A stretch of 64,000 bases of DNA from Bacillus methanolicus PB1 (GTDB lineage: Bacteria > Bacillota > Bacilli > Bacillales > Cytobacillaceae), in assembly GCF_000262755.1 (NCBI RefSeq), contig NZ_AFEU01000003.1:992001-1056000 (forward strand). The letters are read 5' to 3'. Shown here piece by piece: positions 2,439-63,169 of this stretch. The translations under genes and the position numbers were made by a program. Numbering within the stretch: the stretch's first letter is position 1; every line of letters starts with the position of its first letter. The notes under the pieces are model-generated. The model was given only the letters and a program-made list of their open reading frames with translations. It was not told where the DNA came from and did not search any database.

Positions 2439-2552
2439 CCGTTTTTTGTTAAGAATTCATGTTTTACTATCTGTATTTTTTTTCTCTTTTCATATGTTCA
2501 GCCACCAATTTACATTGGATGTAACCCATTGATCATTCAAGTCCAAACAACA

Positions 2553-2677
2553 AAAGAGGCTGTCTCAAAACCCTAAGGGTCAGACCCCATAACACAATAT
2601 ATAGGACATATTGTTGCATAAATGTGCTATATATTGATAAATGCACATGGGGTCAGACCTTATGAGACAGCCTCTTT
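2553..2677. repeat. palindromic repeat, subfamily 1, copy A (125 bp)
   Basis: Full-length copy. Perfect 15-bp terminal inverted repeats AAAGAGGCTGTCTCA (2553-2567) and TGAGACAGCCTCTTT (2663-2677). Inside lie GGGTCAGACCCC and GGGGTCAGACC boxes and facing ATATATAG and CTATATAT blocks, so the whole unit can fold back on itself. It lies 52 bp after the yajC stop, between yajC and the MFS promoter, and may end the ruvA-yajC transcript. Confidence 0.93.
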
Positions 2678-2728
2678 ATTTGTTAAAACTTTTTAGATTT
2701 TAGATAATAATTCGATCTGCTGCATCTT

Positions 2729-10874: not shown

Positions 10875-12618
10875 CTTCCGTTCTCGGCAAGCCGTAAGGA
10901 CCGCTGCCTATCTGGCCAGGGTAACCATAATTCATATATGGCGGCTGGGCAAACACATATGGCTGGGCATAATGCGGCGAATAGATTGGTGTTGTTCCTG
11001 GTGCAGGTCCGTACACAGAGCCAAACGGAGCTCCCTGTGATCCAGGTCCTCCGCAGCCGCAGTCATCAGAAGTGCCTTTCACCCCCTGAACAGGTGCTTG
11101 ATGCGGCATTTGCGCATCCATTTCAGGAGACTCCATTGCTTCCTGAACCTGTGGCATTAGCGGCATTTGATAATCCATTGCTCCATGAATTTGAGGCATT
11201 GGCATTTGGTAATCCATTGCTCCATGAACTTGCGGCATTGGCATTTGGTAATCCATTGCTCCATGAACTTGCGGCATTGGCATTTGGTAATCCATTGTTC
11301 CCAGAACATGCGGCATTGGCGGATAACAATATGGGACCGGTCCATGAGGAGGGCAATGTCCAAATCCAGGACCAGGCATTACTGGTGAAACAGCGGTGCC
11401 AAAAGGCGGACATGGCCCAAACGGCATATGATAAGCCGGCATCTGTGCCGGCATCTGTGCCGGCATTTGATGAGGCATTTGGGCTCCCATATCCGGATAT
11501 TCCATCGTTCCTTGAACTTCAGGCATTAATGGCATCTGACTGTCCATAGTTCCCTGTTCAGAAGATATCTCAGGCATGAATGGAGATGATTCATCAAAAT
11601 CCATGCTCTCAAATTCAGGCATCACTCCATATTGATCAGGCATTTGGGCAGCTTGTGATGTATAAAAAGGCATTTGGTTCATCGGCATAGTTGACGCCCC
11701 TTGCACATAAGGGAAAGGCACTTCTTGCGGCTGATAACCTCCCGGATAATTATATCCTGTTCCAGGCAATGCAGGTAAAACTGGATTAAAATTTGGGGGA
11801 TATGGATACATTGGCTGCTGAAAACCTCCTTGTTGTGTTGGCATAGAAAGAGGAAACTCTTCTTCCTTTATTAAAGGACCCGTGTCGTCTTTTATCATCC
11901 CTGGAAAATAATTATCAAGTTTAGGTGGAATTTGTGGTACAGACATATCGGCCATATTTTGCATATAGTAGTTTTGAATGTCCATTTCTGGGATAACTGG
12001 TTGAGGCATTTTTGGAGAATAAGGTGTTTTCGGTTTTTCTAGTTTTGGAAGTTCTTGTATTGGCGAAATGGGTATTTGCTTTTCTGGTTTTGGCATTTCC
12101 TGTATCGGTGAAACTGGCATTTGCTTTTCTGGTTTCGGTTTTTCCTGTATCGGTGAAACTGGCATTTGCTTTTCTGGTTTCGGCTTTTCCTGTATCGGTG
12201 AAACTGGTATTTGCTTTTCTGGTTTCGGCTTTTCCTGTATCGGTGAAACAGGTTTCGGCTTTTCGGCTTTTGGTAATTCTTTTTTAGGTGCAGCTGGTTT
12301 TAGTGCTTTTTCAGGCATTACCTGGGGCGCTTCCTCAACTGGCAAAGGCTTCGGCTTCTCTTTTGCAAACGGATGCTCAGTGATTGGCATTTCCTTCTTT
12401 GGACCCATTTTGATATATGCTTCCTTTTTCCCTCCAGCCGTCGGAGCTTCTTTTTTAATTGTTCCGCCTCCTGTTGGAATTTTTATTTTCATCCCGGGCA
12501 TAATCATATCAGGGTTGCTTAGCTGTGAATTCAACTTTTTCAGCTCTTCAAAATTTACGCCGTATTTCTTGGCGATTTTCCAAAGAGTGTCCCCTTTCTG
12601 AACGATATGGATTTTCAC
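10849..12618 (-). CDS. safA: SafA-type spore coat morphogenetic protein (LysM, repeat-rich)
   Basis: 589 residues. An N-terminal LysM domain (residues 3-48; HIVQKGDTLWKIAKKYG) that binds cortex peptidoglycan, then Lys/Pro-rich repeats ending in SPIQE (about 121-191), a long Met/Pro/Gln/Tyr-rich region, and 13-residue repeats with GAMDYQMPMP near the C terminus plus a CGCGG cluster. This matches SafA, which guides inner coat assembly and contacts SpoVID (coded at 54 kb). Start is the GTG at 12618, after AGGAGG; an ATG at 12648 lies upstream of that site. A sigma-E-like -10 (CATACAAT) is at 12651-12658. B. subtilis SafA is shorter (387 residues, from memory), so this copy is expanded. Confidence 0.9.
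   Translation of the reverse strand: MKIHIVQKGDTLWKIAKKYGVNFEELKKLNSQLSNPDMIMPGMKIKIPTGGGTIKKEAPTAGGKKEAYIKMGPKKEMPITEHPFAKEKPKPLPVEEAPQVMPEKALKPAAPKKELPKAEKPKPVSPIQEKPKPEKQIPVSPIQEKPKPEKQMPVSPIQEKPKPEKQMPVSPIQEMPKPEKQIPISPIQELPKLEKPKTPYSPKMPQPVIPEMDIQNYYMQNMADMSVPQIPPKLDNYFPGMIKDDTGPLIKEEEFPLSMPTQQGGFQQPMYPYPPNFNPVLPALPGTGYNYPGGYQPQEVPFPYVQGASTMPMNQMPFYTSQAAQMPDQYGVMPEFESMDFDESSPFMPEISSEQGTMDSQMPLMPEVQGTMEYPDMGAQMPHQMPAQMPAQMPAYHMPFGPCPPFGTAVSPVMPGPGFGHCPPHGPVPYCYPPMPHVLGTMDYQMPMPQVHGAMDYQMPMPQVHGAMDYQMPMPQIHGAMDYQMPLMPQVQEAMESPEMDAQMPHQAPVQGVKGTSDDCGCGGPGSQGAPFGSVYGPAPGTTPIYSPHYAQPYVFAQPPYMNYGYPGQIGSGPYGLPRTEDESSEYEG
11162..11320. repeat. 39-bp coding tandem repeats in safA
   Basis: About four copies of a 39-bp unit (13 residues, QVHGAMDYQMPMP with small changes). 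Two neighbouring copies are almost identical at DNA level, which points to recent unit gain. Confidence 0.9.
12046..12258. repeat. 45-bp coding tandem repeats in safA
   Basis: Five copies of SPIQE spaced 15 residues apart, with the unit KPKPEKQMPVSPIQE, encoded by a 45-bp DNA repeat. Prone to length change between strains. Confidence 0.92.
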
Positions 12619-21049: not shown

Positions 21050-21176
21050 AAAAAAAACTCCTACACAGTAATTAAACGACAGAAGACTGCTTGCTGATAG
21101 TATATCAAAAAAGTGTGAACGCGTAAGCAAAATTACACAGAAATGTGAAAATTGTTCTCTCCGAAAGATAAAAGAA

Positions 21177-21297
21177 AGGGGCTGACTCAAAAGCAAAGGG
21201 TCAGACCCCTCCAATACAATATATAGACTATCACTGATAAAACCTTCTATATATTGCTATTGTTGGAGGGAATCAGACCCTTATGAGTCAGCCCTGT
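21177..21297. repeat. palindromic repeat, subfamily 2, copy D
   Basis: Full-length. Ends AGGGGCTGACTCA (21177-21189) and TGAGTCAGCCCTG; inner GGGTCAGACCCCTCCAA and TTGGAGGGAATCAGACCC; facing ATATATAG and CTATATAT. Starts 12 bp after the rpmA stop and 128 bp before spo0B. The outer arm has GGGGC/GCCCT where copy F has GAGGC/GCCTC. Confidence 0.93.
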
Positions 21298-21308
21298 CTT
21301 TTATTGGT

Positions 21309-22263: not shown

Positions 22264-22371
22264 GAATTGCACCTCCTTATGGACTAAGACTCGCCATCAC
22301 AGGTGTTTTGCAGCAACAAAATCTTAATACCTGCTCTGTGCGGTTGTAGCACGGGTGCGCTACAAACATAA
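22264..22371 (-). ncRNA. L21 leader (autoregulatory 5' UTR of rplU)
   Basis: About 108 bases between the predicted start site and the rplU ATG. The leader carries the strong hairpin TTGTAGC/GCTACAA (22344-22365) at its 5' end and further paired segments. Firmicutes have a known L21 leader family upstream of rplU; assignment here rests on position and this hairpin. Confidence 0.65.
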
Positions 22372-22378
22372 CATGAAA

Positions 22379-22407
22379 ATACTATCACGATTTTTGCAGA
22401 GTGTCAA
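22379..22407 (-). promoter_or_regulatory. sigma-A promoter of rplU-prp-rpmA
   Basis: Minus strand TTGACA (22402-22407) and TAGTAT (22379-22384) with a 17-bp spacer. The -35 box lies only 4 bp from the end of repeat copy E. Confidence 0.85.
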
Positions 22408-22411
22408 TAGG

Positions 22412-22514
22412 AAGGTCAGACCCTTCAAATACAACATCTTTTTCAAACTCAAATAAAGCCATTCTATATATTGTCATTGTTGGAGGGTGAAAGCCCTCTA
22501 TGAGTCAGCCTCTC
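22412..22514. repeat. palindromic repeat, subfamily 2, copy E (one end missing)
   Basis: Right end TGAGTCAGCCTCTC is intact; the left end starts at AAGGTCAGACCC, so the terminal GGCTGACTCA is missing on the rplU-promoter side. Inner TTGGAGGG and CTATATATTG blocks are kept. The right 51 bp are read through by rng and give its final residues. Confidence 0.9.
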
Positions 22515-23960
22515 AAAGCGTCTGATATGATAAAAAGGTTTCGGAGAATCGTCTTTAATCTCAAATTTTATTTTCAATCCAAGCAGTTCTTCAAGCCGGA
22601 TTTGGTGAATATAATTTTCCCCGGTAAAAATATTAGCTACCTCTCTAGTTGTTTCAATTAACACACCGTCATAATCAGAATGCCGGTATTCCCAAAGTTC
22701 CCGTTCAAGCCGGAAAGCAATCGTTTCAGGGCTTAATACCCTGCCAGTTCCTTCACAAACAGCGCATTTTACGGTCAAAGCCTCGGAAATGGCCACCTTC
22801 GTTTTCTTCCTTGTCAGCTGCAAAATTCCTAGCGGAGTAAATCCAATCACTTTTGTTCTTCTGTCATCTTTTGTTAACTCGGATTGTATTTTCTGAAGGA
22901 CCCGCTCACGGTCTTCCTCTTTCTGCATATCTATAAAATCAATTAAAATAATTCCACCAATGTCCCTAATCCTTATTTGGCGCGCAGCTTCTTCTGCAGC
23001 CGCTAAATTCACGGAAACAACCGTATCATGCAAGTCATTTTTGCCTGAATATTTCCCGGTATTTACATCAATGACCGTAAGTGCCTCCGCTTCATCAAAA
23101 ATAAGGTAGGCCCCATTTTCAAGCCAGACAATGCGCTTTAATGCTTTTTCGATCTGGTGTTCGATTTCCCAGGCACTGAAAATATTTTCCTTGCCTTTAT
23201 ATAATGTTACATTCATATTAATTTTTTCAGCTTTGACATATCGTTCGATTTTGTTTTTTAGACGAATATCATCAACAATAACTTCTCCTCTGCCATACGT
23301 TTTTATTTCCGAAATCAATTGTTCATAAAACAAATCTTTTTCAAAGAGCAGCCCAGGATTTTTCCTCGAGGAGGCAGTCCTTTCAAGCTCCTTATACATA
23401 TTTCTAAGCTCCTCAAGTTCACTCGCAAGCGCTGCTTCTGATTGATTTTCTGAACTGGTTCTAAAAATCAGCCCTTCGTATTCAGTTTTAAGTAGTTTTC
23501 CGAACCTTCTCCATCGTTCCCTGTTTCGCTCATCAGCAATTTTTTTTGACACTGCTACATACCGGCCATTTGGCAAATATATAATATGTTCCCCTTTAAG
23601 CTCGATAATACCGGTAAGCCTGGGCCCTTTCGTTCCGGTAGCATCTTTCTCTACCTGAACGAGAATTTTTTCACCTTGGTGAACTAAAGATGAAATAGAT
23701 CGGCTGTTCCGCACCTCTTTCGGTCCATCCGATTTTACAAACGCCGGCAATTTATCTCTATGTAAATACCCTGACTTCTCTTCGCCAATATCTACAAATG
23801 CCGCGTTCATTCCAGGGAGTATTTTTGAAACAACTCCAAGATACAAATTTCCAACAATTGAATGGCTTTTAGGCTGCTCGATAAAAAATTTTTCAATTGT
23901 TTGTCCGTTAAGAAGAGCAAACCGCTTCTCCCTCGTTAGACTGTTGACAATTATTTTCAT
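22464..23960 (-). CDS. rng: ribonuclease G/E family endoribonuclease, 3' end supplied by a repeat
   Basis: 498 residues. S1-like RNA-binding domain (GNLYLGVVSKILPGMNAAFVD in part), RNase E/G core with the metal residues in VIDVNTGKYSGKN and IILIDFIDM, and the zinc-link CAVCEGTGRV. Involved in mRNA decay and rRNA processing; B. subtilis itself has no such gene at this position. The last 16 residues (ERLTHRGLSPSNNDNI) are translated from repeat copy E, including its terminal repeat, so the original stop has been lost or shifted. ATG at 23960; GAGGAAAC upstream. Downstream of spoIVFB by 41 bp. Confidence 0.93.
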   Translation of the reverse strand: MKIIVNSLTREKRFALLNGQTIEKFFIEQPKSHSIVGNLYLGVVSKILPGMNAAFVDIGEEKSGYLHRDKLPAFVKSDGPKEVRNSRSISSLVHQGEKILVQVEKDATGTKGPRLTGIIELKGEHIIYLPNGRYVAVSKKIADERNRERWRRFGKLLKTEYEGLIFRTSSENQSEAALASELEELRNMYKELERTASSRKNPGLLFEKDLFYEQLISEIKTYGRGEVIVDDIRLKNKIERYVKAEKINMNVTLYKGKENIFSAWEIEHQIEKALKRIVWLENGAYLIFDEAEALTVIDVNTGKYSGKNDLHDTVVSVNLAAAEEAARQIRIRDIGGIILIDFIDMQKEEDRERVLQKIQSELTKDDRRTKVIGFTPLGILQLTRKKTKVAISEALTVKCAVCEGTGRVLSPETIAFRLERELWEYRHSDYDGVLIETTREVANIFTGENYIHQIRLEELLGLKIKFEIKDDSPKPFYHIRRFERLTHRGLSPSNNDNI

Positions 23961-25640: not shown

Positions 25641-25723
25641 TCTCTCCCCACCAATCACTTTTAAAATTTGTACAAGTGTATGAGTTGTTCATTAAGAAAA
25701 TGACTGTTAAAAGGGAAAAAGAA

Positions 25724-25846
25724 AAGAGGCTGACTCATTAACAAAGAGCCAGCCCCCTCCAAGACAACATATAGACAAACACTAATAAAGCGATTCTATA
25801 TATTGTCTTTTTCGGAGGGGGTCAGACACTTATGAGTCAGCCTCTT
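25724..25846. repeat. palindromic repeat, subfamily 2, copy F
   Basis: 123 bp with perfect 14-bp ends AAGAGGCTGACTCA and TGAGTCAGCCTCTT. Inner boxes are changed to GAGCCAGCCCCCTCC and GGAGGGGGTCAGACAC, still largely complementary. Starts 10 bp from the minD stop; spoIVFA starts 84 bp further on. Confidence 0.93.
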
Positions 25847-25855
25847 CCTTAATGA

Positions 25856-44157: not shown

Positions 44158-46032
44158 ATGCTGAAAAATGAACGCGGAAACAGTTTAATAACGGTTTTGT
44201 TAGTTTCCCTTGTTTTTACGACCCTCGGCCTGGCCATTATCGCTTCTTCCATCGGCGGGGCAAAGAGAGTTGAAACGAGAGAAAGTGATATCCATATAAC
44301 ATATGATGCTGTAAAAATAATCGAAAAGTTGACGGCTGATTTGGCAACCTCAATGGGGTCAATTAGTTTGGATTGGGAAGATGACAGCTTTAAGCCAAAT
44401 ATAAGCGATTACGAGACACAATTAAGGAATTTATTTAATGAAAAAGTACAACAATATAGTGGCGAGGAGATGGTTGAGTGTTTGACGATTGTCGACATAA
44501 GCAACTCCACTCCTACTAAGTACGTTGATTCATCCAACAGTTGTTTGGAGCAAGTTGATCATAACTCCATTCATTATGAAATAGATACAAATAATGATAT
44601 TACAAGAGCTTTTGAAATTGTGCTTGTTACAAAAAATCCGCTTGAATATGAAGGAAAAATTACGCGGATTCTTAGAAAAAGGTTCATCCTTTCCCCATTG
44701 TCAAGCTTTTTAAAATATGCAGCAGGCTCTTATTCCGAGGAGAAAAATAAAGGTTTATTCTTAAATGGATCAGCAAATATTTATGGAAATATTTACGCAA
44801 ACCAAATGGCGATTAATGAAAATGCGAAATACCAAGAAAGGGACGGTGATTGGTCCGAACAATCTACACCGATGAGTTCGATCAATGGAGACATTTTTAG
44901 TAATACATCCAACCTTTTTCCGCTCATGAAAGAAGAAAACTTTTATAAAGGCGAAGTTCCGGATCTAAAGCATGACAGTCAATTTGTAAACATTGATTTT
45001 GATAAGACGATGAATGTTCAAACGAACAAAATTTTAGAAGATAGCGAACTATCCACTGAAAGAATTGGAGATGGTACTGGTTTTTCAGAACAGTTGAAGA
45101 ATGAAATAAAAAGCAAAAGCCAAGAAGAATCTAGCTCGAAGGACATAAAGGTTGACGGTGATCTCGTTATCAACAGTAAAAAGAATCCCATTTTTATCGA
45201 TAAAAAAGTGTGGGTAAATGGAGACTTATATTTGCTAAGTTATAATGATATCAATCTTCTGGAAAATGTATATGTCTCAGGGAAGCTTCACATCATCAAC
45301 CATGACGGGAAAATAGAATTTCAGAAAAATATTTTATGTGCTGATTCGATTAACATTGAATCTAACGCAGACAACAAAAATGACAGGGCATCAAAAGGAT
45401 TAAAAGTCAATGGGGATATCGTTACCGGCAACAAACTTTCTGTTAAGGCATTCAATACTGCGATTGAATTTAACAAAAATATAATTGTCAACGGTTCTCT
45501 AACCATATCAGGAGATGAATCAGACAATGATCATGAAGATGATGAGGTTATTTTTGATTCCGTAGTATATGTTGGAGGGAAAGCCTTTTTATCAAATGTG
45601 AATATTCTTGGTGCAGAAGAAAATAAGAAACATCTTGTATTAATGACGAAAAAAGATCTCGTTATTACGAGAATGAATGAGTTTAATAATTTTCAGGATA
45701 CTGCCGAAGGGGAAAAACCGTACTTGCCGTCTGCCGACGATAAGATAAAACCACTCAAAGCATTTTTCTACACAGAAGAAAAGGCAGAGTTGTACGGGGT
45801 CGGATCTCTTTTTTACATTAACGGCGGCATCTTCGCAAAAGAACAGCTTGAAATTAACGCTGTACGTGGCAAAGTGACAGACATTAATGACTTACCGTCC
45901 AAATCATCACAAGAAGACCAGTTATCCAGATTTATTGTTGAATATAACAAAAATGTTTTGCTGGAAAAAATAGAGGCTCTTCCAATTGTTGAACATCTGC
46001 AATTTTTTTCGGATGAATTAATTATAGAATAG
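44158..46032 (+). CDS. large PilX-like protein with bactofilin-like repeats
   Basis: 624 residues. N terminus resembles PilX (ERGNSLITVLLVSLVFTTLG) with a hydrophobic helix but no Glu at position 5, as in other PilX-type proteins. Residues 200-520 carry a run of short beta-strand repeats with Gly-Asn/Asp turns (NGSANIYGNIYANQ, VDGDLVINSKKNPIFID, WVNGDLYLLS, VSGKLHII, NGDIVTGNKLSVKAF, VNGSLTISG) like the right-handed beta-solenoid of bactofilins. It may be a surface-exposed tip adhesin or scaffold. RBS AAAAGGGGG. The stop codon adjoins repeat copy G. Confidence 0.8.
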   Translation: MLKNERGNSLITVLLVSLVFTTLGLAIIASSIGGAKRVETRESDIHITYDAVKIIEKLTADLATSMGSISLDWEDDSFKPNISDYETQLRNLFNEKVQQYSGEEMVECLTIVDISNSTPTKYVDSSNSCLEQVDHNSIHYEIDTNNDITRAFEIVLVTKNPLEYEGKITRILRKRFILSPLSSFLKYAAGSYSEEKNKGLFLNGSANIYGNIYANQMAINENAKYQERDGDWSEQSTPMSSINGDIFSNTSNLFPLMKEENFYKGEVPDLKHDSQFVNIDFDKTMNVQTNKILEDSELSTERIGDGTGFSEQLKNEIKSKSQEESSSKDIKVDGDLVINSKKNPIFIDKKVWVNGDLYLLSYNDINLLENVYVSGKLHIINHDGKIEFQKNILCADSINIESNADNKNDRASKGLKVNGDIVTGNKLSVKAFNTAIEFNKNIIVNGSLTISGDESDNDHEDDEVIFDSVVYVGGKAFLSNVNILGAEENKKHLVLMTKKDLVITRMNEFNNFQDTAEGEKPYLPSADDKIKPLKAFFYTEEKAELYGVGSLFYINGGIFAKEQLEINAVRGKVTDINDLPSKSSQEDQLSRFIVEYNKNVLLEKIEALPIVEHLQFFSDELIIE

Positions 46033-46084
46033 AAAGAGGCTGTCTCAAAGCCCAAGGGTCAGACCCTTATGAGACAGCCTCTTT
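46033..46084. repeat. palindromic repeat, subfamily 1, short copy G (52 bp)
   Basis: Perfect 15-bp ends AAAGAGGCTGTCTCA and TGAGACAGCCTCTTT with just AAGCCC and a single AAGGGTCAGACCCTTA box between. It lacks the AT-rich centre and one box. It starts at the base after a stop codon on the plus strand and ends 3 bp before a stop on the minus strand, so it can serve as bidirectional terminator for convergent genes. Confidence 0.95.
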
Positions 46085-47689: not shown

Positions 47690-47794
47690 TGCCTACTAGC
47701 TCCATTTCAAGAACTGCGAATTTATTACTACTATTATACCAAATTACCTATCTATGCCAATCTGCAAAAATTAATATTTTGTAAACGAATAATA

Positions 47795-47914
47795 AGGCTG
47801 TCTCAAAAGCCCAAGGGTCAGACCCCATAACATAATATATAGGACATAATGTTGGATAAATGTGGCTATATATTGATAAATGCACATGGGGTCAGACCCT
47901 TATGAGACAGCCTC
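47795..47914. repeat. palindromic repeat, subfamily 1, copy H
   Basis: 120 bp with ends AGGCTGTCTCA and TGAGACAGCCT, GGGTCAGACCCCAT and ATGGGGTCAGACCC boxes and facing ATATATAG and CTATATAT. Lies 13 bp beyond the stop of the GGDEF remnant. Confidence 0.94.
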
Positions 47915-47926
47915 CATTAACTTTTT

Positions 47927-49394: not shown

Positions 49395-49426
49395 ATCACC
49401 ATCTCCTTTTGTTTAAGAACAAAACG

Positions 49427-49545
49427 GAAGAGGCTGTCTCATAAGGGTCTGACCCCATGTGCATTATCAATATATAGCACATTAATCCAACATTATGTCC
49501 TATATATTGTGGGGTCTGACCCTTAGGCTTTGAGACAGCCTCTTC
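49427..49545. repeat. palindromic repeat, subfamily 1, copy I (inverted orientation)
   Basis: 119 bp, perfect 15-bp ends GAAGAGGCTGTCTCA and TGAGACAGCCTCTTC. Relative to A, H and J it is inverted. The outermost pair is G-C where copy A has A-T. Stands 17 bp after the valS stop and 32 bp before folC. Confidence 0.95.
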
Positions 49546-49562
49546 TCATTGAGTACGTGTTT

Positions 49563-52240: not shown

Positions 52241-52278
52241 ATAAAAAACTCCATTCGCCATAAAAGGACGAATAGAGT
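52241..52278 (-). terminator. T-box regulated terminator before valS
   Basis: ACTCTATTCG and CGAATGGAGT pair around an AT-rich loop, followed by TTTTTTATTTT on the minus strand, 30 bp before the valS ATG region. Confidence 0.88.
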
Positions 52279-52503
52279 GAATTTCGCGGTACCACCTTTT
52301 TTCCAACCAAATTATTGATTGGCTCTCATTCAGATAACGGTTTTCCCGTCTTCCGCTAATAAGAAAAAAACCGTTCGCAGAAGATGCTCAAGGGCGACCT
52401 TCCGAAGCACCCGCTTAGGAAGCCTCCCAGCTGTTGGCTTCCCTCTCTTGAAGCTGTTTTCTTCGTACTCTTCCCCGTCTTTGCAAGAACTTTTCAGTTT
52501 CTA
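52265..52503 (-). ncRNA. T-box leader riboswitch of valS
   Basis: Between the promoter and valS the minus strand has the T-box core AAGGTGGTACCGCG (52285-52296 holds GGTGGTACCGCG), preceded by a long stem I with AGAGAGGGAAGCC-type distal loop sequence, and followed by a terminator (52241-52278). A GUC within GGAAGGUCGCC is a candidate valine specifier codon. Uncharged tRNA-Val binding should favour the antiterminator. Confidence 0.93.
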
Positions 52504-53902: not shown

Positions 53903-53943
53903 TACTTTCATCCTCCAAAGGTGAAAACAAAAAGAAAAAAGCC

Positions 53944-54062
53944 GAGGCTGTCTCAAAAGCCTAAGGGTAAGACCCCATAACACAATATATAGGACATAGT
54001 GTTGGATAAATGTGCTATATATTGATAATGCACATGGGGTCAGACCCTTATGAGACAGCCTC
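53944..54062. repeat. palindromic repeat, subfamily 1, copy J
   Basis: 119 bp, ends GAGGCTGTCTCA (53944-53955) and TGAGACAGCCTC (54051-54062); one box is mutated to GGGTAAGACCCC. Lies 16 bp after the spoVID stop and 42 bp before ysxE, i.e. inside a conserved gene pair. Confidence 0.94.
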
Positions 54063-54077
54063 ACTTTTTTAAACTTA

Positions 54078-61978: not shown

Positions 61979-62464
61979 ATGAAAAATCAGCGTATTTTCC
62001 CTGGTATCATTTTAATCGGTTTTGGGGTTTACTTTTACCTTCAGCAAGCAAATATTACGGTGTTTAAAGAGTTTTACACTTGGCCAACATTGCTGATGAT
62101 TGTCGGCCTTGCCTTTCTGGGCCAAGGCTATTGGGCAAAAGATTATGAAGCGATCTTGCCAGGTGTTATTTTGCTGGGATTCGGATTGCATTTTCATGTT
62201 GTAAACCGCCTGGCCATATGGCCTGACCATATAGGCACCTTTATCATGATTATTTCTTTAGGCTTTTTCCTGCGCTATCAAAAAGTTGGAACAGGATTAT
62301 TTCAAGGCGTTTTATTCTTGATTCTTGCAGCATTACTCTTGTTTTACGATAAGATTGCCGGCTGGTTCGGCCATCTTGAAAACAACGTTTCCATGGCGTG
62401 GAAATTTTGGCCGGCTGCCCTTGTGTTGATCGGGGGTTATTTAATATTTTTTAAGAAAAAGTAG
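61979..62464 (+). CDS. ysxD: YsxD-like membrane protein
   Basis: 161 residues with about five hydrophobic stretches, including repeated IFPGIILIGFGVYFYLQQ and ILPGVILLGFGLHFH; the pattern resembles the LiaI/LiaF-type transmembrane region. ATG at 61979 follows GTGGTGA; TTG at 61961 is an upstream in-frame alternative. Plus strand, divergent from hemA, as ysxD stands between hemA and ysxC in B. subtilis. Its stop codon (62462-62464) overlaps the edge of repeat K. Function unknown. Confidence 0.8.
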   Translation: MKNQRIFPGIILIGFGVYFYLQQANITVFKEFYTWPTLLMIVGLAFLGQGYWAKDYEAILPGVILLGFGLHFHVVNRLAIWPDHIGTFIMIISLGFFLRYQKVGTGLFQGVLFLILAALLLFYDKIAGWFGHLENNVSMAWKFWPAALVLIGGYLIFFKKK

Positions 62465-62582
62465 GGGCTGACTCAGAAACAAAGGGTCAGCCCCTTCCAA
62501 AAAACACATTGACAAACATTAATAAAAATATTCTAAATATTGTCTTTGCCGGAGGGAGTCAGACCCTTATGATTCAGTCCTT
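62463..62582. repeat. palindromic repeat, subfamily 2, copy K (diverged)
   Basis: Ends AGGGGCTGACTCA and TGATTCAGTCCTT, inner GGGTCAGCCCCTTCC and GGAGGGAGTCAGACCC; the AT centre is drifted (CATTGACA / CTAAATATTG). The oldest-looking copy. Fills the whole gap between the convergent ysxD and ysxC stops. Confidence 0.88.
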
Positions 62583-62584
62583 CT

Positions 62585-63169
62585 TTAATTTACAAAACTT
62601 TTAATAATGGACCATACCTTTTCTTTTCCTTCGCCCGTCTCGGAGGAAAAAATAACGGAATGGTCATCGGGAACCAAATTTAATTTTTCTTTTGTTATTT
62701 TTAAATGCTTTTGCCACTTCCCCTTCGGAATTTTATCCGCCTTAGTAGCAATTACGATACAAGGGATTTCATAATGTTTAAGAAAGTCGTACATCATCAC
62801 ATCGTCCTCAGTCGGCGGATGCCGCAAATCCACGATTAAAACAGCAGCCTTAAGCTGTTCTCTTGAAGTAAAATACGTTTCAATCATTTTCCCCCATGCA
62901 GCACGTTCGCTTTTTGAAACTTTTGCATAACCGTAACCGGGGACATCAACAAAATAGAACGCTCCATTAATTAAGTAAAAATTCAATGTCTGGGTTTTCC
63001 CTGGCTTCGATGAAGTTCTGGCCAGGTTTTTCCTGTTTATCATTTTATTAATAAACGAAGATTTCCCAACATTCGATCTGCCGGCTAATGCAAATTCCGG
63101 TAAAGCCTGACCGGGATACTGGTCAGGCTTTACCGCACTAACGACAATTTCAGCACTGTTTATTTTCAT
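62585..63169 (-). CDS. ysxC: ribosome biogenesis GTPase YsxC/EngB
   Basis: 194 residues. P-loop [24 protein letters not shown] (G3), [11 protein letters not shown] (G4). Needed for 50S subunit assembly. Overlaps the lonA stop by 4 bp (ATGA). Confidence 0.97.

Follow-up and report, generated by a model that had tools for sequence, protein, structure and literature searches.

The window, the whole 64,000-nucleotide stretch of Bacillus methanolicus PB1 DNA that was analysed, contains rng, the product of which was assigned to the RNase E/G family by both PF10150 (E = 3e-84) and TIGR00757 (389 bits), and, beyond the 3' end of rng, a promoter-like site and the L21 leader of the rplU operon (Table 1). 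The length given for the rng product was counted from an ATG; the list of open reading frames has a TTG start one codon earlier. An operon with an L21 leader has been described for strain MGA3 (PMC4342826). At the 3' end of rng lies a copy of a dispersed repeat, here termed copy E, and the spacing between this repeat and the TTGACA (-35 box) of rplU is only a few nucleotides (~5) in all three genomes of the genus that were analysed, namely that of the window (G000), G001, which was taken as B. methanolicus MGA3 and is so called below, and G002. The rplU promoter-like site occupies the same place in other genera, in several of which the rng stop codon itself overlaps the TTGACA. Elsewhere in the window, tandem repeats of 39-bp and 45-bp period, both multiples of three, were observed at 11162-11317 and 11990-12297 and likely lie inside coding sequence, and a T-box leader (RF00230, 128 bits) was found on the minus strand at 52261-52490.

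Table 1. Features of the rng-rplU region, repeat copies in the window, and genes and insertion sequences from the wider survey (positions without a prefix are those of the window).
Feature	Position	Strand	Remarks
Second-subtype element copy	2550..2682	+	ends GGCTGTCTCA
Intact element copy	21170..21302	+	just downstream of the L27 gene (21309-21608, minus strand)
L21 leader (RF00559) of the rplU operon	22277..22355	-	Rfam match
rplU promoter-like site	22379..22407	-	TTGACA-N17-TAGTAT; few nt beyond the repeat
Repeat copy E, IS1182-type MITE-like element	22412..22514		right end intact, abuts rng; left terminal inverted repeat lost
Repeat-derived rng 3' end	22464..22514	-	(E)RLTHRGLSPSNNDNI and stop TAG
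rng, RNase E/G family ribonuclease	22464..23960	-	498 aa including the repeat-derived tail
Conserved rng body	22515..23960	-	482 codons, ending ...KPFYHIRRF; alignable to homologues
Intact element copy	25718..25851	+	hairpin then U-tract, z -11.5
Second-subtype element copy	47789..47920	+
Second-subtype element copy	49424..49549	-
Second-subtype element copy	53937..54069	+
Intact element copy	62457..62588	+
hisJ	L246:391-1206 = G000:C4:1238490-1239305	+	ends in the repeat (TGLTQE, stop)
ogt, methylated-DNA--protein-cysteine methyltransferase	L219:1254-1826 = G000:C2:453306-453875	-	ends ...KKKGTGSKEKGQTLPKQYINKH, stop
MGA3 (G001) IS1182-family copies	L183:1336-3152, L188, L193, L198

A preliminary description of this DNA had proposed that the rng frame runs 51 bp into copy E and that the protein ends in a repeat-derived tail, and the coordinates, the sequence and the TAG stop were all found to be as claimed. 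The final 17 codons of rng (22464-22514, minus strand) read ERLTHRGLSPSNNDNI followed by the stop, and these 51 nt all lie within copy E; the stop codon itself (22464-22466) is the complement of the CTA that opens CTATATATTG (22464-22473). The leading E (GAG) is the junction codon and sequence of certain repeat origin begins at AGG (R); the repeat supplies 15 residues, perhaps the E as well, and the stop codon. A profile made from 27 other copies and run against the 64 kb independently placed copy E at 22412-22513 (67.3 bits, E = 4e-20); the match covers model positions 30-130 of 140, the far end being missing. Read in the frame of rng, the consensus repeat gives GLTHKGLTPSNNDNI and a stop, or RLTHKGLTPSNNDNI and a stop in copies with GAGGCTG for GGGGCTG, and the rng tail is close to this generic reading. 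The nucleotide match over ~100 bp together with the same-frame reading of the consensus excludes a chance resemblance between the tail and the repeat.

Of 61 related genomes, 59 contained Rng, 80 further rng loci were added from a named collection, and C-termini were read to the stop at 27 loci, all from other genera. In every one of these 27 the alignment ran to ...FY.IR.F and was followed by 2-15 unrelated, differing residues, in keeping with the earlier expectation that homology would cease before the RLTH of the tail: it stops at ...FY.IRRF, directly ahead of the repeat. No repeat-less homologue with the same C-terminus was found, and the homologues that share the tail, those of the two congeneric genomes, carry the same repeat copy. 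In a profile scan the repeat was absent from every fetched rng locus outside the genus, the two far-off matches (E 0.8 and 1.7) being ascribed to chance. The same insertion is present in all three genomes of the genus and is thus older than their split; none of the three has a repeat-free rng, so the ancestral rng end is not seen among them. Rng of G002, which with G000 forms the closer pair (91% in Rng), ends ERLTFKGLAPSNNDNR, and that of MGA3 ends ERLTH through a TAG inside the repeat.

Intact copies of the element are ~115 bp long, palindromic and non-coding, with terminal inverted repeats GGGGCTGACTCA...TGAGTCAGCCCC that are often preceded by an A-tract and followed by a T-tract, and the terminal stem shows a few compensatory changes. 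The second subtype differs in its middle part and ends in GGCTGTCTCA, its four copies in the window being ~80-95% alike; an inverted pair GGCTGTCTCA...TGAGACAGCC at 46029-46079, only ~42 bp across, is apparently either a collapsed copy or a plain terminator built of element ends. At least 98 distinct copies were present in those parts of G000 that had been sampled by score; the 146-150 copies per genome among the matches listed may include both strands, hence the use of the 98. The element was abundant in MGA3 and G002 too, and 10 further genera of the family had weaker matches with the same architecture. Related elements of equal length and architecture, some with ends AAAAAGAGGCTGACTCA...TGAGTCAGCCTCTTTTTT, were also observed in G167, G117, G137 and G148, which belong to other genera (e.g. 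at L176-L178), and these constitute a wider Bacillaceae superfamily. Plasmid and phage collections held no related copies, no Rfam family matched the element at the gathering threshold, our literature searches found no description of it, and the word 'repeat' is absent from the main text of the MGA3 transcriptome paper (PMC4342826).

The three frames at the right end of the consensus translate as GLTHKGLTPSNNDNI, RG and GADS, and those at the left end as GLTQKQRVRPLQYNI, RG and GADSKAKGQTPPIQYIDKH, each closed by a stop codon after 1 to ~19 residues. Because stops occur in every frame at both ends, insertions give only short tails, and all three frames were met in the survey (RG, GTGSKEKGQ... 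and (E)RLTH.../TGLTQE, each up to a stop). Intact copies would, in addition, be expected to terminate transcription. Copy E was considered as a terminator in its own right and rejected, as one of its ends is gone and its fold is no more stable than that of shuffled sequence (z -0.98); the 3'-part folds of the MGA3 and G002 rng copies gave z values of -1.4 and -3.0, but the folded stretches include the L21 leader and these values carry no weight.

With regard to its class, the element is short (~115 bp, under the ~600 bp of MITEs), non-coding and dispersed in many copies, and intact copies have terminal inverted repeats, of which copy E itself retains just one end. Target-site duplications were sought at k = 2-10 over the 57 copies with both ends resolved and none was found; it is for this reason that we call the element MITE-like and not a classical MITE. 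As IS1272 is reported to make no duplication either, this absence argues for an element of that type and not against mobility. MGA3 carries four 1.82-kb IS1182-family copies that are 98-99% identical and encode a 522-aa transposase (NF033551, 455 bits), and their ends, GGGGCTGACCCAAAAGGAA and GGGGCTGACTCAAAAC, match those of the short element at 17 of the first 19 left-end bases and at all 12 terminal right-end bases. A T-tract follows the right end in three of the four IS copies, and an A-tract also precedes the left end in two. These matching ends make the MGA3 IS, which is intact, a candidate autonomous partner, the IS1182-family transposase of which may mobilise the short elements; L199, the copy of this kind in the genome of the window, is broken. 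Palindromes of the REP/RAYT kind (20-40 nt, Y1 transposase) were rejected as a class for the element, which is ~115 bp long and has no paired ends near the Y1_Tnp genes of the genome.

The copies occupy characteristic positions with respect to genes. For 74 of the 98 copies an ORF of at least 90 aa ends no more than 40 nt before the copy or inside it, compared with 12.2 ± 3.2 (maximum 21 in 200 trials) upon random placement within the same stretches, and most copies begin 3-40 nt past a stop codon. Among the 57 copies with both ends resolved, the flanks were complementary beyond shuffled pairing (5.30 versus 4.72 ± 0.16, maximum 5.26 of 1000), a modest signal that was concentrated in the first positions. 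Two genes could be compared in empty and occupied states. The hisJ site is empty in MGA3, where the gene ends KFF and its stop is followed by a terminator-like hairpin, AGCCGGCTTTTAGGAGCCGGTT; in G000 the element replaces this hairpin, and in G002 there is a ~40-nt collapsed remnant that still codes TGLTQ and a stop. The ogt site is empty in G002, where the gene ends KKKKQTV and its last codons and stop lie inside a terminator-like hairpin; in G000 the element stands at the place of that hairpin, reading GTGSKEKGQTLPKQYINKH up to a stop, and in MGA3 the site is also occupied, reading GPDF and a stop. Since G000 and G002 are the closer pair, yet G000 and MGA3 are the ones occupied at ogt, either one hairpin was hit twice or an insertion was lost. 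The empty-site hairpins at hisJ and ogt had z values of -4.2 and -4.9, respectively. A further gene (L013) likewise reads into an element copy and ends ...RG before a stop.

We regard it as probable that a hairpin-targeted insertion of the element removed the native last codons and stop of rng and supplied new ones. In the ancestor shared by the genus, a ~115-bp IS1182-type palindromic element would have landed at the rng 3' end. Such elements would enter hairpins, mostly intrinsic terminators, delete part of them and leave no target duplication, in the manner of IS1272; where such a hairpin begins no later than the stop codon, the insertion could remove the last codons together with the native stop. 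The rng frame would then have run into the right end of the element and stopped at its TAG after 15-16 new residues, and the tail, being beyond the conserved domains, would have been tolerated. The ancestral end of rng may have been a hairpin that was partly deleted; insertion into a hairpin with partial deletion was found at hisJ and ogt and is not directly seen at rng, and a terminator-like hairpin directly follows the rng stop in some outgroups, two of the five examined having none. The earlier wording, that the rng 3' end was 'replaced', is favoured over 'added' both by the ~5 nt left between the repeat and the rplU -35 box and by the position of the repeat at ogt and hisJ, where it occupies the place of the hairpin. 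A plain insertion that displaced the native last codons of rng, instead of deleting them, is possible.

A different order of events, in which the element first landed downstream of an intact rng stop that was later lost by point mutation or small deletion, the frame being extended and the stops of the element serving as a backstop, was judged unlikely. It would accord with the tendency of most copies to start shortly past a stop codon, and hisJ offers a concrete parallel, as TTT TGA AC of MGA3, which holds its TGA stop, aligns without gaps to the CTT CAA AC / CTT AAA AC that directly precedes the element in the two remaining species. At rng, however, homology to other genera continues right up to the element, no leftover native codons or mutated stop intervening, which places the junction at, or within, the end of the ancestral coding sequence.

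Between G000 and G002 the tail (17 codons) differs at 7 of 51 nt, distributed 2/3/2 by codon position, and the rng body differs by 27/16/68 over 480 codons; the rest of the rng repeat copy differs at 10 of 53 nt. The divergence of the tail is thus near that of the remaining element and of rng third positions (68/480), which, with few sites, is suggestive of, though not proof of, a lack of selection or codon-level constraint on the tail. A selected role of the repeat-encoded residues in RNase G, for instance in localisation, stability or partner binding, appears very improbable: nearly the full length is kept in two of the three species, but MGA3 dispenses with most of the tail by a TAG right after ERLTH, the changes between G000 and G002 fall on all codon positions, about as often as third-position changes do in the gene body, and the residues almost equal the generic reading of the repeat and lie outside the Pfam and NCBIfam domains. 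The tail is probably functionally unimportant for RNase G. That it is not made at all, because translation ends earlier or a sequencing error shifts the frame, is scarcely credible, given that the rng frame is open and collinear with homologues up to the junction and that two independently sequenced congeneric genomes likewise read into the repeat.

Short, dispersed, structured intergenic repeats, a description that also fits the present element, are familiar from Firmicutes, for instance bcr in the Bacillus cereus group and BOX, RUP and SPRITE in pneumococcus (see also PMC10969869). Fusion of repeats to gene 3' ends has been described for the enterobacterial RU-1/ERIC repeat units (Delihas 2007, PMC2759123), for example in the amidase ECA3499 and the ABC transporter ECA4072, where, as in rng, a small MITE-like repeat removes or replaces the normal stop and creates a short C-terminal extension that is absent from orthologues and ends at the stop of the repeat. 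The rng extension is likewise repeat-encoded and absent from repeat-less orthologues; the repeat family and the host, however, are unrelated, and the element described here differs further in having all-frame stops at both ends, in sitting in terminators and in an insertion common to three species. IS1272, a member of the IS1182 family, is reported to enter the stems of terminator hairpins with a blunt partial deletion and no duplication and to use the same targets repeatedly (PMC4923244). The likeness to IS1272/TnSha1 extends to hairpin targeting, partial deletion, the lack of duplication and the transposase family, which is that of the MGA3 IS. IS1272, by contrast, is an autonomous element of staphylococci, whereas the present one is short, non-coding and numbers ~100 or more per genome; the passages of PMC4923244 consulted make no mention of IS1272 supplying gene 3' ends. 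Rickettsia palindromic elements (RPE; reviewed in PMC10969869) are also palindromic repeats translated as part of proteins, but they lie in frame inside genes without ending them, whereas the present element ends rng. Repeat-derived C-termini with a lost native stop are therefore an already described kind of event; what is new is the element family, of which the papers searched held no description, together with the stops in every frame and the empty and occupied sites, which link tails of this sort to insertion targeted at terminators.

A broader reading, which we offer tentatively and with somewhat more doubt than conviction, is that the element acts as a mobile '3'-end cassette' that lands in terminator hairpins, deletes them, brings a new hairpin terminator and all-frame stops at both ends, and so replaces gene ends without serious harm. 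If true, this would explain how ~100 or more copies could build up immediately after genes, and rng, ogt and hisJ would be the instances in which the coding end was lost too. The empty and occupied sites of the sister species show in what way a mobile element aimed at terminators may give proteins new C-termini and stop codons, and the stops in every frame show why such insertions are tolerated. Annotators of this group should be aware that brief C-terminal tails confined to one lineage, RLTHKGLTPSNNDNI or GADSKAKGQTPPIQYIDKH for example, are repeat sequence.
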